From positions 1-29,472 of the IMG/VR virus record IMGVR_UViG_3300005613_000312: a stretch of 29,472 nucleotides of DNA; one strand, written 5' to 3'. Below, piece after piece: positions 1 to 7,568 of this stretch (its first letter is position 1; the number at the start of each line of letters is the position of its first letter). Position numbers and translations under genes: made by a program. The stretch is from a virus. The notes beneath the pieces were generated by a model. The model was not told the origin of the DNA. It did not search any database and was given only the letters and a program-made list of their open reading frames with translations.

Positions 1-247
1 ATTCAACTTTCTCTGCACCACATAAATCTAAACCTTCAATTAAACTTACAAGTTTTCCATCTTTATCAACAGAATATCCAGTATCAGCAATAATTGCAGT
101 TGCTTTTATATAATTCTCAAGAATACTTTCATAATAATGTAAATTCACAAAACCACGATTTACATCACAAGACTTACCACCTTCATTTGAATAAATGGTA
201 AACTTTGATACATTATATTCTCTTGCTACTTGATTATTGAGACTCAT
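1..247 (-). CDS. Tail/baseplate-hub structural protein, N-terminal fragment cut by the left edge
   Basis: An open frame starts at the ATG at 247 and runs off the left edge with no stop, giving about 82 residues (MSLNNQVAREYN...). The TAA of the upstream 1021-residue gene and this ATG share one base (TAATG), so translation is probably coupled. The N-terminus (YSNEGG, a YYESIL segment, then an AIIADTGY strand) resembles structural proteins that follow the large tail proteins in cyanophage hub operons, with a fold perhaps like gp27/gp44 hub proteins. That assignment is from memory of the family and from position. No catalytic motif is visible in the part present. Confidence 0.7.
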   Translation of the reverse strand, partial: MSLNNQVAREYNVSKFTIYSNEGGKSCDVNRGFVNLHYYESILENYIKATAIIADTGYSVDKDGKLVSLIEGLDLCGAEKVE

Positions 248-3200
248 TATCCAATAGTTAAAGATGATTGAATTTGATTGAATGACGAAAAACTCGTATT
301 ATTATTTACTATACTTCCTCCAGCCGGAATTGTAACTTGCTTTTCTATAATTCTTGTTTGGCTAATAAATGTAACTCCACCGGCAAACTCATAATCTCCC
401 TGTTGGTCTAATCCGAATGCGATTTTTGAAATTTGTTTTGGTGCCAATGATGCCTGGGGAGTTCCACCTAAAGTTGGTTTCAGTGTTGGTCCTGGTGCAT
501 TTCTTTGATCTTTAATTGCGTCAATTAACCATTTATTTTTTCCTCCACTAAAATCAATATCGTTTCCTTGTTGATCTTTAAGTGTGTTATTTTTTTCGTC
601 AACATAGTACTTTTTGCCATTGACCAAATAAAGTTTTCCTCTTGGTGTTGGTTTTTTTTGTAATGTAATTTGATCTTTTCCAAGAATATTTCCTGCTTCG
701 TCCATAGGTTTGGAAGCAATCTTCGCTTTTACATTTCCACCATACCTAAAATAACTATCTTTGACTGCAGCAGCATTTCCATATCCCTCATAAGTCATTG
801 CACCTCCATTAGGATAATACTCAAAATGTAAGTGAGATCCTTTAGATGCTCCAGTATTTCCCTGACGACCAATCATTTGTCCTGCTTTTATTGATTGTCC
901 AGTTCTTACATTAGTAGATTTTAGGTGTCCAAATCTAGTTTCTGCACCATTGGAATATCTAAGTATAACACTATATCCATATCCATCTCCTTTATCTCCT
1001 GACCATACAACTTTTGCGTCTTGTGCAGAAGAAATAGGAGAACCATCACCACCATCTAAATCTATTCCTTTGTGCATTTTCCCCCATCTCCACCCTTGTC
1101 CCGATGTTGTCGGTATTTGTGATGGAAGAATTCCACCAGTGACCATTGCTTCTGGACCTTTGGTTTTACTGGGCAAGTATCTATTAGATTGTCTTTGTAC
1201 TTCTGCAGGCTGTGCCTGAGATCCCCCAGGCAAAGAAGGCCAAGTATTTTTTAATAAGTTATCTGCTTTTCTAAAATCGCCAGATATGATAGCATCAAAA
1301 GCTTTTGGATTATATTTCTTAATCCATGCCATTGTTGCTTTAGATGCTGTTGTGAAATCCGCATCACGAGGACTCAACCCACCAGAAGCTTGTATTGCTT
1401 CTTGAGTAAATGCAGGAAATGCTTGATAATAACCCATTCCTGGGGATCCTTCAGCATTTGGTATATTTCTAATTCTAGTTTCTAGATATGCAAGTCTAGT
1501 TAAATATCCTGCCATATTTTCTGGAATTCCAGCCTGCAGTAATTCGGGAGATACTTGTCCGCCACCATCATATCCATCAGGTGTTCTACCATCAAAAGAA
1601 CCACCATCAGGAGCAGAATAATCTTTTTTTGTAAACTGTTGGCGGATAGATTGAAGTGTCCTATTTACCTGACTATTCACCATTGTTTCTAGTGTCTTGC
1701 CGATACTCTCGCCAATTTTGACTCCTATGTTTTCATTGGTTGATAATGTCCTCGGCACAACTCCACCATTGGCAAGACCAACAATTTGATTTTGGACACT
1801 AGCGATTGTTCCACTTGTTTCTGCATCTATTGCATTTTGAATTAGATGACCAAATCCAGTTCCAATTTTTTTAAATGTTCTTGGATCTGGTCTTTGGCCC
1901 ATAGTAGAATCAAGGGAAGCCCCCATAATGCTACCAATCAATGGAACTTTTTCTTTATAGTTTTTAGATGCAGTTTCTAATACACCAAGAGGATTTTTTT
2001 GTCTTGGGTCTGTTGGCGACGGGAATAATTTTTTAATTTCTTCTCTTCCGCCAATATCTTTACCTGGGATTGTTCTTTGTGGTTGTATTCTTGGTGGTTT
2101 TGTTCTAGTTTTTTTAATTGTTCTACTAATTGGAGAAGAGGCGCTCTTTTTACCTCTTGTAACTTGACCTCCTTGTGCCTTTCCTTTAAGTTTATCGCCG
2201 CCAACTAAAGAATCATAAAGTGCTCCACCAACAATATCACCCAAAATCCCACCAAGAATTGTACCAGCAAAAGGCACAGGAACAAATGTTCCTAGAGCAG
2301 AACCAATTGTAGCACCAACTGCTTTAGCTGCTGCTCTCCCTGGCTTTTCTTTGAATATTACTGTGCTAATAATAAAATCAATCAGACCTCCAATAATTGG
2401 AACTTTACCGAGTGCTTTTCCGGCTAATCTTCCGCCAAATCTTCCGGCTGTTTTTCCAGTTAGTCCTTTATAACTCCTTTTGCCAAATTTTTTAATGTAT
2501 GCTTTTTCGCCATGTTGACTTAAGTATCTTGCCTGTGTTCTTTTGCTGACTTTTTGTCCAGTTTGTCTATCTACTCCTAGTCTTTCTTTTTTTCTGCCAC
2601 CGCCAACACTAAAATCTGCACTACCAGAAGCAGCCATTCCAGCAATAAGAGCTAGGTTAGCAAACTTATTAAATTGAGTATCAAATTCTTTCAGTCGTTT
2701 TTCTGTATCATCTCCACTGATGCCAGCAATAATATTTTTGACTTGATCATATGCTTTATAACCAAATCCAACAAAATCTACAACTCCATTAAGAATATTT
2801 CCAGTAATAGTTTCAAAATTTTTAAATGCTGGACCTAATAATTTAAGAAAATTTAGTACCTTTGGAATATGTTTTCCGAATTTGGTAAAAGCAGCACCAA
2901 GTAGAGTGTAAAAAAGAAACTGCTTTATTCGATCTAGAAATCCCATCTTCGGGAATTCAGTTGGTTTGAAATCTGGAATTAATTTATTTTTCTTTTCCTC
3001 TGAACGAAGTTCTTTCTCTTCAAATTTTTTTCTTTCGTTTTCTTTTCTTTTTCTTTCTTCTGATTTTTTTAATAATGAACTATTGCCTTTAATTATTTTT
3101 AAAATAGAAAGAGTATTCTTTCTAATTTCTATGACTTCAAATAATAAAGTTTTTGGTTGGTTCTTATTTCCCTCTGGTTTGACATCAGATGGATTGAGAC

Positions 3201-3312
3201 TACTCGATGAAATATTACCAATCCCAGATGCAATAGAAACTCTCTGAGATGAGAGACCTTCATTTTCCGTTTTATTCTGTGGTATGAACTTATTTGAATT
3301 TATTTTTGCCAT
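247..3312 (-). CDS. Large tail protein with lysozyme-like domain and M23 endopeptidase domain
   Basis: This 1021-residue virion protein is probably a baseplate hub or tape-measure-type component that digests the cell wall at injection. Residues 55-110 are a charged coiled coil. Residues 127-375 hold hydrophobic, glycine/alanine-rich segments. Residues 590-700 look lysozyme-like (Glu611, GMGYYQ near 625, WPSLPGG near 691). Residues 735-835 are an M23 (LytM-like) metallopeptidase, with zinc ligands visible as His747 and Asp751 in HKGIDLDG and His827/His829 in HLHFE. The segment at 127-147 (FYTLLGAAFTKFGK) matches one at 311-331 of the 836-residue neighbour, so the two are paralogous over their N-terminal halves. 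The start lies one base after the neighbour's stop (TAAGATG). The hydrolase domains are clear; the exact structural role is inferred from the operon. Confidence 0.8.
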   Translation of the reverse strand: MAKINSNKFIPQNKTENEGLSSQRVSIASGIGNISSSSLNPSDVKPEGNKNQPKTLLFEVIEIRKNTLSILKIIKGNSSLLKKSEERKRKENERKKFEEKELRSEEKKNKLIPDFKPTEFPKMGFLDRIKQFLFYTLLGAAFTKFGKHIPKVLNFLKLLGPAFKNFETITGNILNGVVDFVGFGYKAYDQVKNIIAGISGDDTEKRLKEFDTQFNKFANLALIAGMAASGSADFSVGGGRKKERLGVDRQTGQKVSKRTQARYLSQHGEKAYIKKFGKRSYKGLTGKTAGRFGGRLAGKALGKVPIIGGLIDFIISTVIFKEKPGRAAAKAVGATIGSALGTFVPVPFAGTILGGILGDIVGGALYDSLVGGDKLKGKAQGGQVTRGKKSASSPISRTIKKTRTKPPRIQPQRTIPGKDIGGREEIKKLFPSPTDPRQKNPLGVLETASKNYKEKVPLIGSIMGASLDSTMGQRPDPRTFKKIGTGFGHLIQNAIDAETSGTIASVQNQIVGLANGGVVPRTLSTNENIGVKIGESIGKTLETMVNSQVNRTLQSIRQQFTKKDYSAPDGGSFDGRTPDGYDGGGQVSPELLQAGIPENMAGYLTRLAYLETRIRNIPNAEGSPGMGYYQAFPAFTQEAIQASGGLSPRDADFTTASKATMAWIKKYNPKAFDAIISGDFRKADNLLKNTWPSLPGGSQAQPAEVQRQSNRYLPSKTKGPEAMVTGGILPSQIPTTSGQGWRWGKMHKGIDLDGGDGSPISSAQDAKVVWSGDKGDGYGYSVILRYSNGAETRFGHLKSTNVRTGQSIKAGQMIGRQGNTGASKGSHLHFEYYPNGGAMTYEGYGNAAAVKDSYFRYGGNVKAKIASKPMDEAGNILGKDQITLQKKPTPRGKLYLVNGKKYYVDEKNNTLKDQQGNDIDFSGGKNKWLIDAIKDQRNAPGPTLKPTLGGTPQASLAPKQISKIAFGLDQQGDYEFAGGVTFISQTRIIEKQVTIPAGGSIVNNNTSFSSFNQIQSSLTIG

Positions 3313-3313
3313 C

Positions 3314-5824
3314 TTATGCTAGACCATAGATTGCAGCATTGATTGATGCCTGGGTAGAATCTGGTGGCATAAACTGAGGAACTTTTGTTCCACCAGAACT
3401 GGCAATTTGAGAATTTTCTTGTTGTACAATTGGCGGCAATTCTATAAACGACATTTTTGAATTTGAAACTGGGGGTCCAGGCAAATTCATTTTTGCTTGG
3501 GGACCGAGCTTTAAAGTTTCATTATAAGTTTTTTGTAATAATTCAGGAGCTTTAACTGGTTGATTATAATAACTCTTACCTTCAAGATTTGGTAATGATG
3601 CCCACTCCCCAGCAACAGTATTCAATATTCCTCTACTTAATCCTTGAGATTTAAGTTGCGGTAAAGAAATCCCCCTTCGTTTTGCCAATGCCCAGGCAGC
3701 ACGATCTTGATTTTCTGGTGTCATTTTATCGGAAGGTTTCAATACATTCATAATCATCAATTGTTTTAATGTATTAGGCATAAATTGATATGCCCCAGAT
3801 GCCCTCGACTCTCCACCACCCCATGGTGCTCTACCACCACCAAATCTTTTTGGTAGCATATCAGTCATTTGCGTATTAATTAATTCCTTGACTGTCATCT
3901 GGCGAATTGGAACTTCGGCTCCACCGTAGATCGTATCATAAGAATTTTTGGATTTTATAGTTCCTTCCGCAACTTTAAGTGCCCTGAGGAATGCTTGAAC
4001 TTCTCTAGATTTGTGCTCATATTTTGGTGCTGGGCCATGCCATGATGGACCAAATGATTTTTTTGGTTCTGGTGATTTGGAACCAAATAAATTTTTAATT
4101 CCTCTCATCATTCCACCAATCATTCCTCCGCCTTGTGCCACTTGAATTTTATTGACCATCCCACCGCCTTGTGCCATCTGTATATTATTAATGAACTTTG
4201 GAATATTAGTTCCTCCGCCCATCTTATTCATCGCCAGAAGCCTCTCTGCGCCCCAATAATCCACTGCTTTCTTGCTGAAGACAACTTCACCTGGCTGAAG
4301 CACTGTTGCCTGTGTATCTGGTCCTACTCCTGCTACAGTAATTCCAGTGCCTTCATCGACATATCCACCTTCAAATGGTTGAAGTGAAGTTTGCTGTCCA
4401 CCACTAGCAAATGCTCTAGCAAGTGGAATCAATCCACCACCTTTAAATGCCGGAATTCCACCCGAAGAGCCGAGATCAAGTATACCTTTTTGGAAGCTTG
4501 GTGTTTTTCCATAATTTGGATCTGCACTTTGCAATTCTTGATCTTGTTTCTGTTTTCTAGATTGCATATACATTCCAATACCAGCTGCAGCACCAGCGGC
4601 ACCAATTGCTATTGATGCTTTGGGATACTTTGCAATCAATTTCAATAATTTAGGAATGGCAAACTTAGATAATCTTAATGTAAGTTTTGCAACAGTTCCA
4701 ATAAATGCACGAACAAACTGACCAAATGGTGTGGTGAATAGAACGATAGCACCCAACAGTGCTGGCCACCAATCCTTCAAAAACTGCTTGAGTGTTTTTA
4801 CTCGTTCTTTATTCTTTGGATTATTGAGCCATTTTACAAAATTTGTGAATGCCTTACCAAGTAGAGTGAATACAATGAAATTAATAATTTTATCGAGAAT
4901 TCCTTGGACAGGAGCAAGTAATTTAGATGCAAAGGTAGTTACTTTTTCAATTCCTTTTTCTAAGGATTCCTCTCGTTTTTGTCTTCTTAAAACTTCTGCT
5001 CGTTTTCTTTCTTTATCTTCTTGTTTTTTATATAATTTATTTCTTTCTGTTAATATTTCAAGTATTTTTGATGTGACTCTATTAATAGAGACTACATGCT
5101 TCAGTAATCCATCAAATGTTTGCTGTTCTGGTTTTGGCTGTTCTGTTGCAAGACTTTCTGGTTTTACTCTTGCTTTTGGTGTTGATGTAACTGCTCTGAC
5201 ATTTGTTGCATTAATTTTCCCGGACTTTTTGAGCTTGAATTTTCCTACTTTATCTTTTACTCTTTTGAGTTCATTCTGTAGAATTTTGGTGTGTTTCTTT
5301 GATATTTTTTTGCCAGTTTGCCAAGATCCTTCCAATAATCTTTGGGAAATTAAATCACTGTAATCTTCATAATCAACTTCTGATGTATCTTCCATTCCTA
5401 GAAGTTCTAATAGCTCAGAATCAATCTCTTCTTCTACTAAATCATCTCTACGAGTTCCTTCATATATGGGAGCTGGAGCAGTTGGTTCTTCAGCTATATT
5501 TTTAATTAGATCTTCTAATGTAGGAATCTCAGGTTCGTTTTTTAAATATTGCTCAACTAACCATTCTTGATATTTTTTGTTGTCTTCCTCGAAATTTTTT
5601 GTCTTCTCTTCTTCAAAAAGTGGAAACCCACGGACATCTTTTTTTATATTTCTTATAATTGTATCTGCTTCTTTGTCATTTAGTTTGACCGCAGAATAAT
5701 AAGATCTACCGTCAGGCTGCTTTTTGCCAGTAAGTTTCGCCTTGAGTGTAGCCCAAGTTTTTTCGCCAACTTGATTGAACGAAAACCACTTTACTGGTAT
5801 TCCTGACGGTATGTCAACTTGCAT
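3314..5824 (-). CDS. Large tail protein, probable tape measure, with lambda-endolysin-like domain
   Basis: This 836-residue protein lies directly after gp26 and gp51, where tail phages keep the tape measure after its chaperones. Residues 1-200 are charged, 240-300 form a coiled coil, and 300-415 hold hydrophobic helices. Residues 485-515 resemble a tape-measure linker (VAGVGPDTQATVLQPGEVV). There is a duplicated IQxAQGGGM repeat near 548-568. Residues 605-770 resemble the lambda R endolysin (GH104 lytic transglycosylase): Glu620 in VAEGT, ASGAYQFMPNT at 675-685, QDRAA at 706 and WASLPN at 741. At about 1.5 angstrom per residue it could span roughly 125 nm, a plausible cyanophage tail length. 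It overlaps gp51 by 11 bases. T4 gp29 would be the functional counterpart, but I see no clear sequence match. Confidence 0.75.
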   Translation of the reverse strand: MQVDIPSGIPVKWFSFNQVGEKTWATLKAKLTGKKQPDGRSYYSAVKLNDKEADTIIRNIKKDVRGFPLFEEEKTKNFEEDNKKYQEWLVEQYLKNEPEIPTLEDLIKNIAEEPTAPAPIYEGTRRDDLVEEEIDSELLELLGMEDTSEVDYEDYSDLISQRLLEGSWQTGKKISKKHTKILQNELKRVKDKVGKFKLKKSGKINATNVRAVTSTPKARVKPESLATEQPKPEQQTFDGLLKHVVSINRVTSKILEILTERNKLYKKQEDKERKRAEVLRRQKREESLEKGIEKVTTFASKLLAPVQGILDKIINFIVFTLLGKAFTNFVKWLNNPKNKERVKTLKQFLKDWWPALLGAIVLFTTPFGQFVRAFIGTVAKLTLRLSKFAIPKLLKLIAKYPKASIAIGAAGAAAGIGMYMQSRKQKQDQELQSADPNYGKTPSFQKGILDLGSSGGIPAFKGGGLIPLARAFASGGQQTSLQPFEGGYVDEGTGITVAGVGPDTQATVLQPGEVVFSKKAVDYWGAERLLAMNKMGGGTNIPKFINNIQMAQGGGMVNKIQVAQGGGMIGGMMRGIKNLFGSKSPEPKKSFGPSWHGPAPKYEHKSREVQAFLRALKVAEGTIKSKNSYDTIYGGAEVPIRQMTVKELINTQMTDMLPKRFGGGRAPWGGGESRASGAYQFMPNTLKQLMIMNVLKPSDKMTPENQDRAAWALAKRRGISLPQLKSQGLSRGILNTVAGEWASLPNLEGKSYYNQPVKAPELLQKTYNETLKLGPQAKMNLPGPPVSNSKMSFIELPPIVQQENSQIASSGGTKVPQFMPPDSTQASINAAIYGLA

Positions 5825-5981
5825 TTTGCTGCTGCTTTAGTTTCTCTTCTTCTAGATGATTCTTCAATAAAGTTACATAAACTTCTCTTTCCCAAGGTAA
5901 CAATGATTCAATCTCAGTTAATGAGTATTTATGGTATTGCATTAAGGAAAAATTAAGTTGATAATAATTTTCCAAATCCAT
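5814..5981 (-). CDS. 51: gp51-like tape-measure chaperone / baseplate hub assembly protein
   Basis: This is a 55-residue protein (MDLENYYQLNFSLMQY...). The segment LTEIESLLPWEREVYVTLL followed by an acidic/basic helix is typical of T4 gp51-like proteins and of the T-part of tail chaperones such as lambda gpGT. It begins 11 bases after the gp26 stop and lies in the -1 frame relative to gp26. A slippery TTTTTTC at 5999-6005 would let ribosomes enter it from gp26 without using its own ATG. No obvious Shine-Dalgarno sequence precedes the ATG. Its end overlaps the start of the 836-residue tail protein by 11 bases, the usual chaperone-tape measure arrangement. Confidence 0.8.
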   Translation of the reverse strand: MDLENYYQLNFSLMQYHKYSLTEIESLLPWEREVYVTLLKNHLEEEKLKQQQNAS

Positions 5982-5992
5982 GTGAGAAAGAC

Positions 5993-6712
5993 TTATGCGA
6001 AAAAAGATGTTAGTCCCTCAATTGTAACCTCACTCTCTACCTTAGTCTTTGGATTTTTGATCTTAATTGTATGGGAAATTTTTGGCATTGTCTCAAAGAA
6101 TTTTTCAATCAGTTTAAATTGAGAAGAGTTCATCTGATCTAAAAATTCTTGAAGTTCTTTTTTTGTTACATCAGAAGTTGCCCAAACTTCATCTTCTGTA
6201 TAAATCTTATCGATGCAAGATCCTATCAATTCAAATGCCTGATCCATATCATCTGTGGCATTTAAATCAAAGTTATTTTTGATAAACTGGTCTAATGATG
6301 GATATCTCATTTCTAGATATATTTTATCATCTAGTTTAATTTTTTTGTCGTGTCCATCAAATTTTTGAACTTCAATCTCATCAATATTGATTTTTACTGG
6401 AACTGTAGTCACTTCGTCGTCTGGGCAGATGACATTGACTTCTATTTCTTCTCCGACAGATTTACCACGAATATTTAAGAATAGATATTCAATGTCAAAA
6501 GTTGGAAGAGTTTCTACTTTGATACCTCTCGTTTCAATGCAATTTTTAAGGACAGTCTTAATTGCTTCTGTTATTTGCTTTGAGTCTTCGCTTTCTAGTG
6601 CTAGAACAAGTAATTTTTCTTCTCGAACTAGAAATGGTCTGTATTTTATTTCTTTTCCGGTTGATGGTAAAGTCAAGAAATAAGTAGGTGCTGAAATCTT
6701 TGGTAATGGCAT
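5993..6712 (-). CDS. 26: gp26-like baseplate hub subunit / tail assembly chaperone
   Basis: This 239-residue protein begins MPLPKISAPTYFLTLPSTGK and contains the conserved YRPFLVREEKLLVLALES segment typical of T4 gp26-family proteins (T4 gp26 is about 208 residues). It acts in assembly of the central hub and tail tube. By position and fold it resembles the G-type tape-measure chaperones. The last codons, TCT TTT TTC GCA TAA, contain a -1 slippery heptamer. A frameshifted product would have 238 residues of gp26, then RISLSH, then all of gp51, about 299 residues. A late-promoter-like AATAAATA lies 29-36 bases upstream of the start. Confidence 0.88.
   Translation of the reverse strand: MPLPKISAPTYFLTLPSTGKEIKYRPFLVREEKLLVLALESEDSKQITEAIKTVLKNCIETRGIKVETLPTFDIEYLFLNIRGKSVGEEIEVNVICPDDEVTTVPVKINIDEIEVQKFDGHDKKIKLDDKIYLEMRYPSLDQFIKNNFDLNATDDMDQAFELIGSCIDKIYTEDEVWATSDVTKKELQEFLDQMNSSQFKLIEKFFETMPKISHTIKIKNPKTKVESEVTIEGLTSFFA
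5999..6005 (-). other. -1 ribosomal frameshift heptamer TTTTTTC at the gp26/gp51 junction
   Basis: In the gp26 frame the sequence reads T TTT TTC, the X XXY YYZ pattern for -1 slippage, two codons before the gp26 stop. After a one-base backward slip the frame continues CGC ATA AGT CTT TCT CAC and enters the gp51 ATG codon in frame with no stop. The arithmetic agrees: gp26 codons begin at positions congruent to 1 mod 3 and gp51 codons at 2 mod 3, which on the minus strand is a -1 shift. Confidence 0.75.
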
Positions 6713-6740: not shown

Positions 6741-6748
6741 TATTTATT
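6741..6748 (-). promoter_or_regulatory. Late-promoter-like octamer AATAAATA before gp26
   Basis: This matches 7 of 8 bases of the T4 late consensus TATAAATA. It lies on the minus strand at the very end of gp54 and about 30 bases before the gp26 start, so transcripts from it would have a short leader. It could be chance in AT-rich DNA. Confidence 0.4.
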
Positions 6749-7568
6749 AGGCAACATTTGGTGGAGCAAACCCTTCAAATCCAGCACCACTAAATCCACC
6801 AATGTTTCCAGGTAATGGCTGTAGGCCAAAATTATTATTTAATGGAGAAAATATATTTCCGGGATCAGATGAAAATTGTCTGAAGTTTTTAGATCTAACA
6901 TAACGACTATAAGTGAAAGATACAGTGCACTTTAATAGTTGAGAATTGTCATATGAAACTGGCATTGACGCGATACTAATTGGATATGCATTAATAAATT
7001 GATAAGTTAATGGTCTATCTTTCCCTGGTTCTTTTTTTTGTGCTGGCTCTGTCGGGTCATAATCTCGTTCAAATTTTGTAATAAAAAGAGCATCTGCATG
7101 ATATTGTTCTGGAAAATTCACCCTGTAATTATAATTTTTATTTAATTGTGGTGGTCTTGTTTGGTCTTGGGCCGACAATAAGTTTTCACCAACAACATAA
7201 GAAATCCAATTTTCGAAAAAATCAATTACAAAATAATTAGCATCGACATAAAAAGTAAAATCTGTCCTATCATCATATGATCTACGATATGCATGTCTTT
7301 CTGTTACACCAGTATAATCATTATTAATCTCATGAGTCATCAATGAAGACCCAGGAAGAGTAGCTTCAGAACAAGAAAGCTGAATTAATTCTTGATTTTC
7401 ACCAATGTATTTTCCACCATTAAATCCAGCAGTTGTTCTCTGTGATAAAAATTCTTCGACTAGGCTCGGAGGCTTAAATTCGCAAATAAAATTAGATGTC
7501 AAAGCAGGTCTTAGTAACTTGCTTTTGATCTCAGACATCTTATAAGGTTTTATTGTTGGGCCTTCCAT
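6747..7568 (-). CDS. 54: gp54-like baseplate tail tube initiator
   Basis: This 273-residue structural protein resembles the tail-tube fold family (T4 gp54 and gp19). The N-terminal TSNFICEFKPPS strand, the SCSEATLPGSSLMTHEINN segment, DRTDFTFYVDANY and the C-terminal SFTYSRYVR are characteristic. In T4, gp54 binds gp48 on the baseplate and starts polymerisation of the gp19 tail tube. gp48 is encoded just across the strand switch. This is the first gene of the leftward hub operon. A minus-strand late-promoter-like octamer lies at 7594-7601, about 26 bases upstream. The choice of gp54 over another tube-like protein is from family memory. Confidence 0.75.
   Translation of the reverse strand: MEGPTIKPYKMSEIKSKLLRPALTSNFICEFKPPSLVEEFLSQRTTAGFNGGKYIGENQELIQLSCSEATLPGSSLMTHEINNDYTGVTERHAYRRSYDDRTDFTFYVDANYFVIDFFENWISYVVGENLLSAQDQTRPPQLNKNYNYRVNFPEQYHADALFITKFERDYDPTEPAQKKEPGKDRPLTYQFINAYPISIASMPVSYDNSQLLKCTVSFTYSRYVRSKNFRQFSSDPGNIFSPLNNNFGLQPLPGNIGGFSGAGFEGFAPPNVA

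Follow-up and report, generated by a model that had tools for sequence, protein, structure and literature searches.

The short and long tail assembly chaperones of phage lambda, gpG and gpGT, are encoded between the tail-tube and tape-measure genes, with the long form made by a -1 frameshift, and a 2016 review describes this arrangement as widely conserved "except T4" (PMC5009743). Tail assembly chaperone (TAC) genes of T4-like phages were identified by Vladimirov, Gautam and Davidson (2022, Virology 566:9-15), whose work is relayed in two later papers (PMC10885494, PMC12846349); according to these accounts, some T4-like phages have separate short and long TAC genes (PMC10885494), and polyT slippery sequences are known in the TAC-N genes of T4-like phages (PMC12846349). 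The locus considered here has these chaperone genes as well, and its TAC-N gene carries a polyT slippery site of the same kind, as far as the later account of that work describes them (PMC12846349). Since such sites were, as that account has it, already described, the core claim of a gp26/gp51 frameshift in T4-like phages is already known and is not novel in principle. Vladimirov, Gautam and Davidson in 2022 reportedly also found frameshifting to be conserved in several T4-like groups, with T4 genes 26 and 51 being separate. With the principle published, the added value of the present comparison lies in its breadth, in the finding that gp51 has no usable start in many phages, and in candidate stimulatory elements, including a Shine-Dalgarno-like element, together with a variant in Ackermannviridae; the novelty of these refinements could be checked only in part.

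The DNA analyzed (the window) is a 29,472-base IMG/VR virus record whose best matches are Synechococcus and Prochlorococcus T4-like phages (Kyanoviridae). Its minus strand carries, in order, a tail-tube-type gene, gp26, the -1 ORF gp51, and two large genes at 3314-5824 and 247-3312 (Table 1). Both parts of the gp26-gp51 pair are homologous by sequence to the T4 gp26/gp51 family (PF12322, phrog_150, phrog_634), and they lie with a tail tube gene on one side and the tape measure gene, a candidate in the window, on the other. In I1_18, phiM19 and R11Z, tape-measure profiles match the large gene after gp51, either directly or one ORF on. The two large genes of the window also have a related stretch in common (34% over 137 aa, 6e-11), the one at 3314-5824 having an endolysin-like region and the other an M23 peptidase domain; either may be the tape measure.

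Table 1. Positions of the gp26/gp51 features and neighboring genes in the window
Feature	Position	Strand	Evidence
Tail-tube-type protein gene, upstream of gp26	6747..7568	-	PF23849 Phage_TTP_2 1.4e-17; phrog_45
gp26 (TAC-N), 239 aa, predicted zero-frame product	5993..6712	-	PF12322 T4_baseplate 1.1e-76; phrog_150 3.5e-83; best structural match of the modeled N-terminal domain is the HK97 tail assembly chaperone 2ob9 (Z 7.9)
-1 slippery heptamer T TTT TTC	5999..6005	-	Sequence; canonical heptamer in 157/157 non-Ackermann junctions; central TTT without synonymous change
Shine-Dalgarno-like GAGGGA, putative stimulator, 10-14 nt upstream of slip site	6014..6019	-	Conserved bases and biased codons at -14 to -10; anti-SD pairing stronger than in synonymous shuffles, an excess not matched in 17 control windows
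Predicted -1 frame extension (gp51, TAC-C), 61 residues after slip	5814..5999	-	phrog_634; fusion score; -1-frame residues conserved upstream of ATG
gp51 in usual annotation, from ATG, 55 aa; ATG probably internal	5814..5981	-	Same ATG codon missing in L005, L009, L058 and many divergent relatives
Region downstream of slip site; small hairpin ~10 nt after slip possible in many relatives, weak in window	5955..5990	-	Folding z-scores; GC/AU covariation in relatives
Large gene directly downstream of gp51, candidate tape measure, endolysin-like region	3314..5824	-	Position; phrog_35029 and phrog_90; same-position gene matches tape-measure profiles in some relatives

The gp26 ORF ends in GAG GGA CTA ACA TCT TTT TTC GCA TAA, and the window sequence confirms what the sequence-only reading had proposed, that T TTT TTC stands in the gp26 frame close to the stop, from which it is separated by a single codon (GCA). 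The further proposal, that a -1 slip leads without a stop into gp51 to give a fusion of about 299 residues, was likewise borne out: the post-slip frame continues TTT TTT CGC ATA AGT CTT TCT CAC ATG GAT..., encoding FF-RISLSHMDLENYY..., and remains open until a stop at 5814, for a fusion of 299 aa. The phrog_150 score rises from 280 bits for gp26 alone to 314 for the fusion. Our reading of these features, to which we assign a probability of about 95% on comparative grounds, is that gp26 is the short TAC-N and that minority -1 slippage on T TTT TTC would add the gp51 frame to give TAC-NC. The zero-frame product would serve as the short chaperone, while at the end of gp26 a minority of ribosomes would slip, the P-site and A-site tRNA-Phe leaving UUU-UUC to pair with UUU-UUU; both the slippage in infected cells and its rate are what we infer. 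Slipped ribosomes would then pass the gp26 stop and add 61 gp51-frame residues. A Shine-Dalgarno-like element upstream would stimulate the slip, as would a downstream hairpin in many relatives. On the lambda gpG/gpGT model, the N-part common to both forms may bind the tape measure protein and the C-part recruit tail-tube subunits, both chaperone forms leaving before the tail is completed.

What comparison shows is the slip site, the frame relation, a constraint on coding that spans the junction, and a fold like that of the chaperones. T TTT TTC is found at the same place in all 80 of the 80 nearest IMG/VR relatives. A broader set, drawn from viral contigs and isolate phages, contains 174 distinct junctions, with 157 outside Ackermannviridae (and the Ackermann-like Vibrio phage K413); these represent Kyanoviridae, Schizotequatrovirus, other Straboviridae (Citrobacter Ci1, Aeromonas ZPAH1), Emdodecavirus, Otagovirus, rhizobial phages and a Variovorax phage. 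A canonical in-frame heptamer with the -1 frame open into gp51 is present in 157/157 (135 TTTTTTC, 21 TTTTTTT, and 1 TTTTTTA/TTTAAAC); it mostly starts 7 or 10 nt ahead of the gp26 stop, which usually comes 0-1 codons after the heptamer. Window genes contain roughly one in-frame T6N heptamer per 1,100 codons, and gp26 bodies roughly one per 3,000; because such heptamers are this rare in gp26 bodies and yet 157/157 junctions carry a canonical one here, the pattern is more than chance. The central TTT codon is present in 169/169 sequences with 0 synonymous changes on a gp26 tree of 38 substitutions/site, as against 6-37 at other well-conserved Phe columns and a median of 27 over all conserved columns; the tree sequences were chosen for heptamer presence, a choice that dropped only Ackermann-type junctions. 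The slippery site and the codons spanning the junction both show evolutionary constraint. The junction comparison called for by the sequence-only reading therefore found the slippery site and the -1 relation conserved in all non-Ackermannviridae junctions, with no random frame relation, and its proposal of a programmed -1 frameshift passed every comparative test run (invariant site, -1 relation in every relative, and a start-less gp51 in many).

Sequence on both sides of the heptamer was evaluated for candidate stimulatory elements. Between -14 and -10 from the heptamer, two to three positions are almost always G, and the Glu-Gly codons there are mostly GAG GGN or GAA GGG, with GAA GGT/C/A being dominant elsewhere in gp26. 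Predicted pairing to the anti-Shine-Dalgarno (anti-SD) sequence averages -7.18 kcal/mol vs -5.92 when codons are shuffled synonymously (shuffle means with an SD of 0.12; kinship ignored), and a comparable excess was seen in 0/17 control windows. The Shine-Dalgarno-like GAGG/AAGGG upstream of the slip site thus looks to be conserved too, as a putative stimulator. The Glu and Gly codons appear to covary, in the window (6014-6019) and in relatives, such that GAGG/AAGGG is kept 10-14 nt before the slip site. On the downstream side, the z-scores for folding of 60-nt segments reach their minimum at +10 (mean -1.7). Consensus RNA structure prediction for the full diverse sets, which are possibly too diverse, gave nothing (energy 0.0), and when 27 cyanophages were aligned with a tool, no more than a small hairpin emerged. 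One pair of a hairpin such as GGUCCAUAUGGACC, with G-C/A-U exchange, is kept in 37/37 comparable cyanophages through ~5-7 changes on the tree. The downstream hairpin is only suggestive as a stimulator because it is weak in the window and in many relatives. At L019, L023, L031 and other cyanophage loci, a hairpin such as GGTCCATATGGACC is positioned ~10 nt past the slip, with the G-C/A-U exchange falling between Val/Ile and Asp codons.

The canonical heptamer is absent from 17/174 distinct junctions, all from Ackermannviridae or the Ackermann-like Vibrio phage K413. These read [AG] ATT TTC AT[TC] TAA, or A CTT TTC AAG TAA in K413, and a gp51-like ORF occupies the -1 frame at all 17; at such a site, full re-pairing is possible only for the A-site Phe tRNA. 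For gp26 junctions L084, L090 and L201-L218 the -1 relation is kept, with [AG]_ATT_TTC (or A_CTT_TTC) replacing T_TTT_TTC. The slippery heptamer of T7 gene 10 is G_GUU_UUC. The T7 gene 10A/10B site, where X_XX is G_GU (PMC5009743), resembles the Ackermannviridae [AG]_AUU_UUC in that only the A-site tRNA re-pairs well, but belongs to a capsid gene and not a chaperone. Taken jointly, an internal Shine-Dalgarno followed by T_TTT_TTC and then by a small hairpin with compensatory changes in many cyanophages might form a complete bacterial-style signal, from which Ackermannviridae would have drifted to the T7-like [AG]_ATT_TTC while keeping the -1 relation, so that the short/long chaperone ratio would be selected and tuned by lineage; we consider the odds of this larger picture to be about even.

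Searched by sequence alone, solved structures yielded no relative of gp26 at a significant E-value, and plain Foldseek of the gp26 AlphaFold model (pLDDT 86.4, 36 sequences) gave no significant match among them. Structural realignment of the model placed the HK97 tail assembly chaperone 2ob9 at the top (Z 7.9, rmsd 4.0, 84/107 residues), followed by 3fgx (7.8), 3klu (7.2) and 5ir0 (4.8), with all others at 4.2 or lower. This is a TAC-N fold at moderate strength, and gp26 residues 1-90 are predicted, with moderate confidence from the model, to be the TAC-N domain. HK97 gp13 (2ob9) shares the fold of gp26 residues 1-86, but at 8% identity and with the remainder of gp26 having no counterpart in the HK97 protein. 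The proposed parallel with lambda gpG/gpGT holds up in the chaperone-like fold, in the position between tail-tube and tape-measure-like genes, in a short chaperone with a -1 frameshifted long form, and in the colinearity of T4 gp51 with the fusion. The lambda protein differs in that gp26 is longer than gpG (about 140 aa), and many gp26 relatives carry Cys pairs suggestive of zinc ribbons. The lambda slippery sequence, GGGAAAG, is also unlike T TTT TTC.

In T4 itself, gene 26 is on the minus strand and gene 51 on the plus. T4 gp51 (249 aa) matches phrog_150 over 3-248 and phrog_634 over 147-246, the same pattern as the window fusion (phrog_150 over 1-287, phrog_634 over 194-297). A profile built from the fusions aligns with T4 gp51 continuously through the junction, and the end of T4 gp26 falls shortly after the FF slip point; T4 therefore appears, from these alignments, to have separate genes for the short and long products that the other phages would make from one gene by slipping. 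The N-terminal likeness of gp26 to the HK97 chaperone, together with the alignment of T4 gp51 along the fusion and the ending of T4 gp26, likewise identifies gp26 as the probable TAC-N and the fusion as TAC-NC. Treatment of gp26 and gp51 as separate proteins is thus upheld for T4, where the genes are on opposite strands and there is no frameshift, but does not extend to the other phages compared, which would slip at one locus; the window has this single locus in -1 relation rather than separate genes for the two forms. T4, the textbook model, would be an exception that keeps both chaperone forms as separate genes.

Some findings do count against the frameshift reading: an ATG where gp51 could in principle start is present in the window and in about half of relatives, the Ackermannviridae are non-canonical, a Z of 7.9 is moderate, and there is no solved relative by sequence. 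The ATG in particular, located in the window 11 nt past the gp26 stop codon, would allow gp26 and gp51 to be two separately translated genes, with gp51 started by translational coupling, and P-SSM2, ME01 and phiM19 are annotated in this way. However, this ATG is replaced by ATT or ATA in close relatives L005, L009 and L058, and 70/169 distinct sequences have none ahead of -1-frame codon 19, which is inside the conserved core; gp51 is therefore unlikely to be a separate gene in those 70 relatives. Amino-acid conservation in the -1 frame begins immediately after the slip, ahead of any ATG (R-I/V-A/G-L/M-x-H), and neither these codons nor the invariant T6 heptamer would be needed for coupling. 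Mean anti-SD energy at the gp51 ATG, where present, is a negligible -0.93, as compared with -4.72 at gp26 starts and -2.72 at the downstream large genes. Frameshifting had been offered as the reason that gp51 has no visible ribosome site, and the near-zero energy agrees with this; the lack of a site nonetheless counts for little, as good sites tend to be missing from downstream genes too. Altogether, we find separate translation to be very improbable.

Slightly less probable again is that RNA polymerase slippage on the T-run, and not ribosome slippage, produces the fused frame: a six-T homopolymer is present, but the in-frame X XXY YYZ register is held in 157/157, and the upstream Shine-Dalgarno-like element points to the ribosome. 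Bacterial transcriptional slippage usually needs longer runs than six T. T-runs are also error-prone, so that the gp26/gp51 break might be a sequencing or assembly error at the homopolymer; its recurrence in 157 distinct junctions, including isolate genomes that different groups had sequenced, refutes this, and its probability is vanishingly small.

Under the preferred frameshift reading, the "baseplate hub" gp26 and "hub assembly catalyst" gp51 of abundant marine cyanophages make better sense as a single tail assembly chaperone under frameshift control, and the annotations checked (two genes, "baseplate hub") are therefore misleading. The phiM19 record annotates gp26 and gp51 as two genes, as do those of P-SSM2 and ME01, and in Salmonella phage Vi01 the -1 ORF is left unannotated (records L083, L094 and L084).
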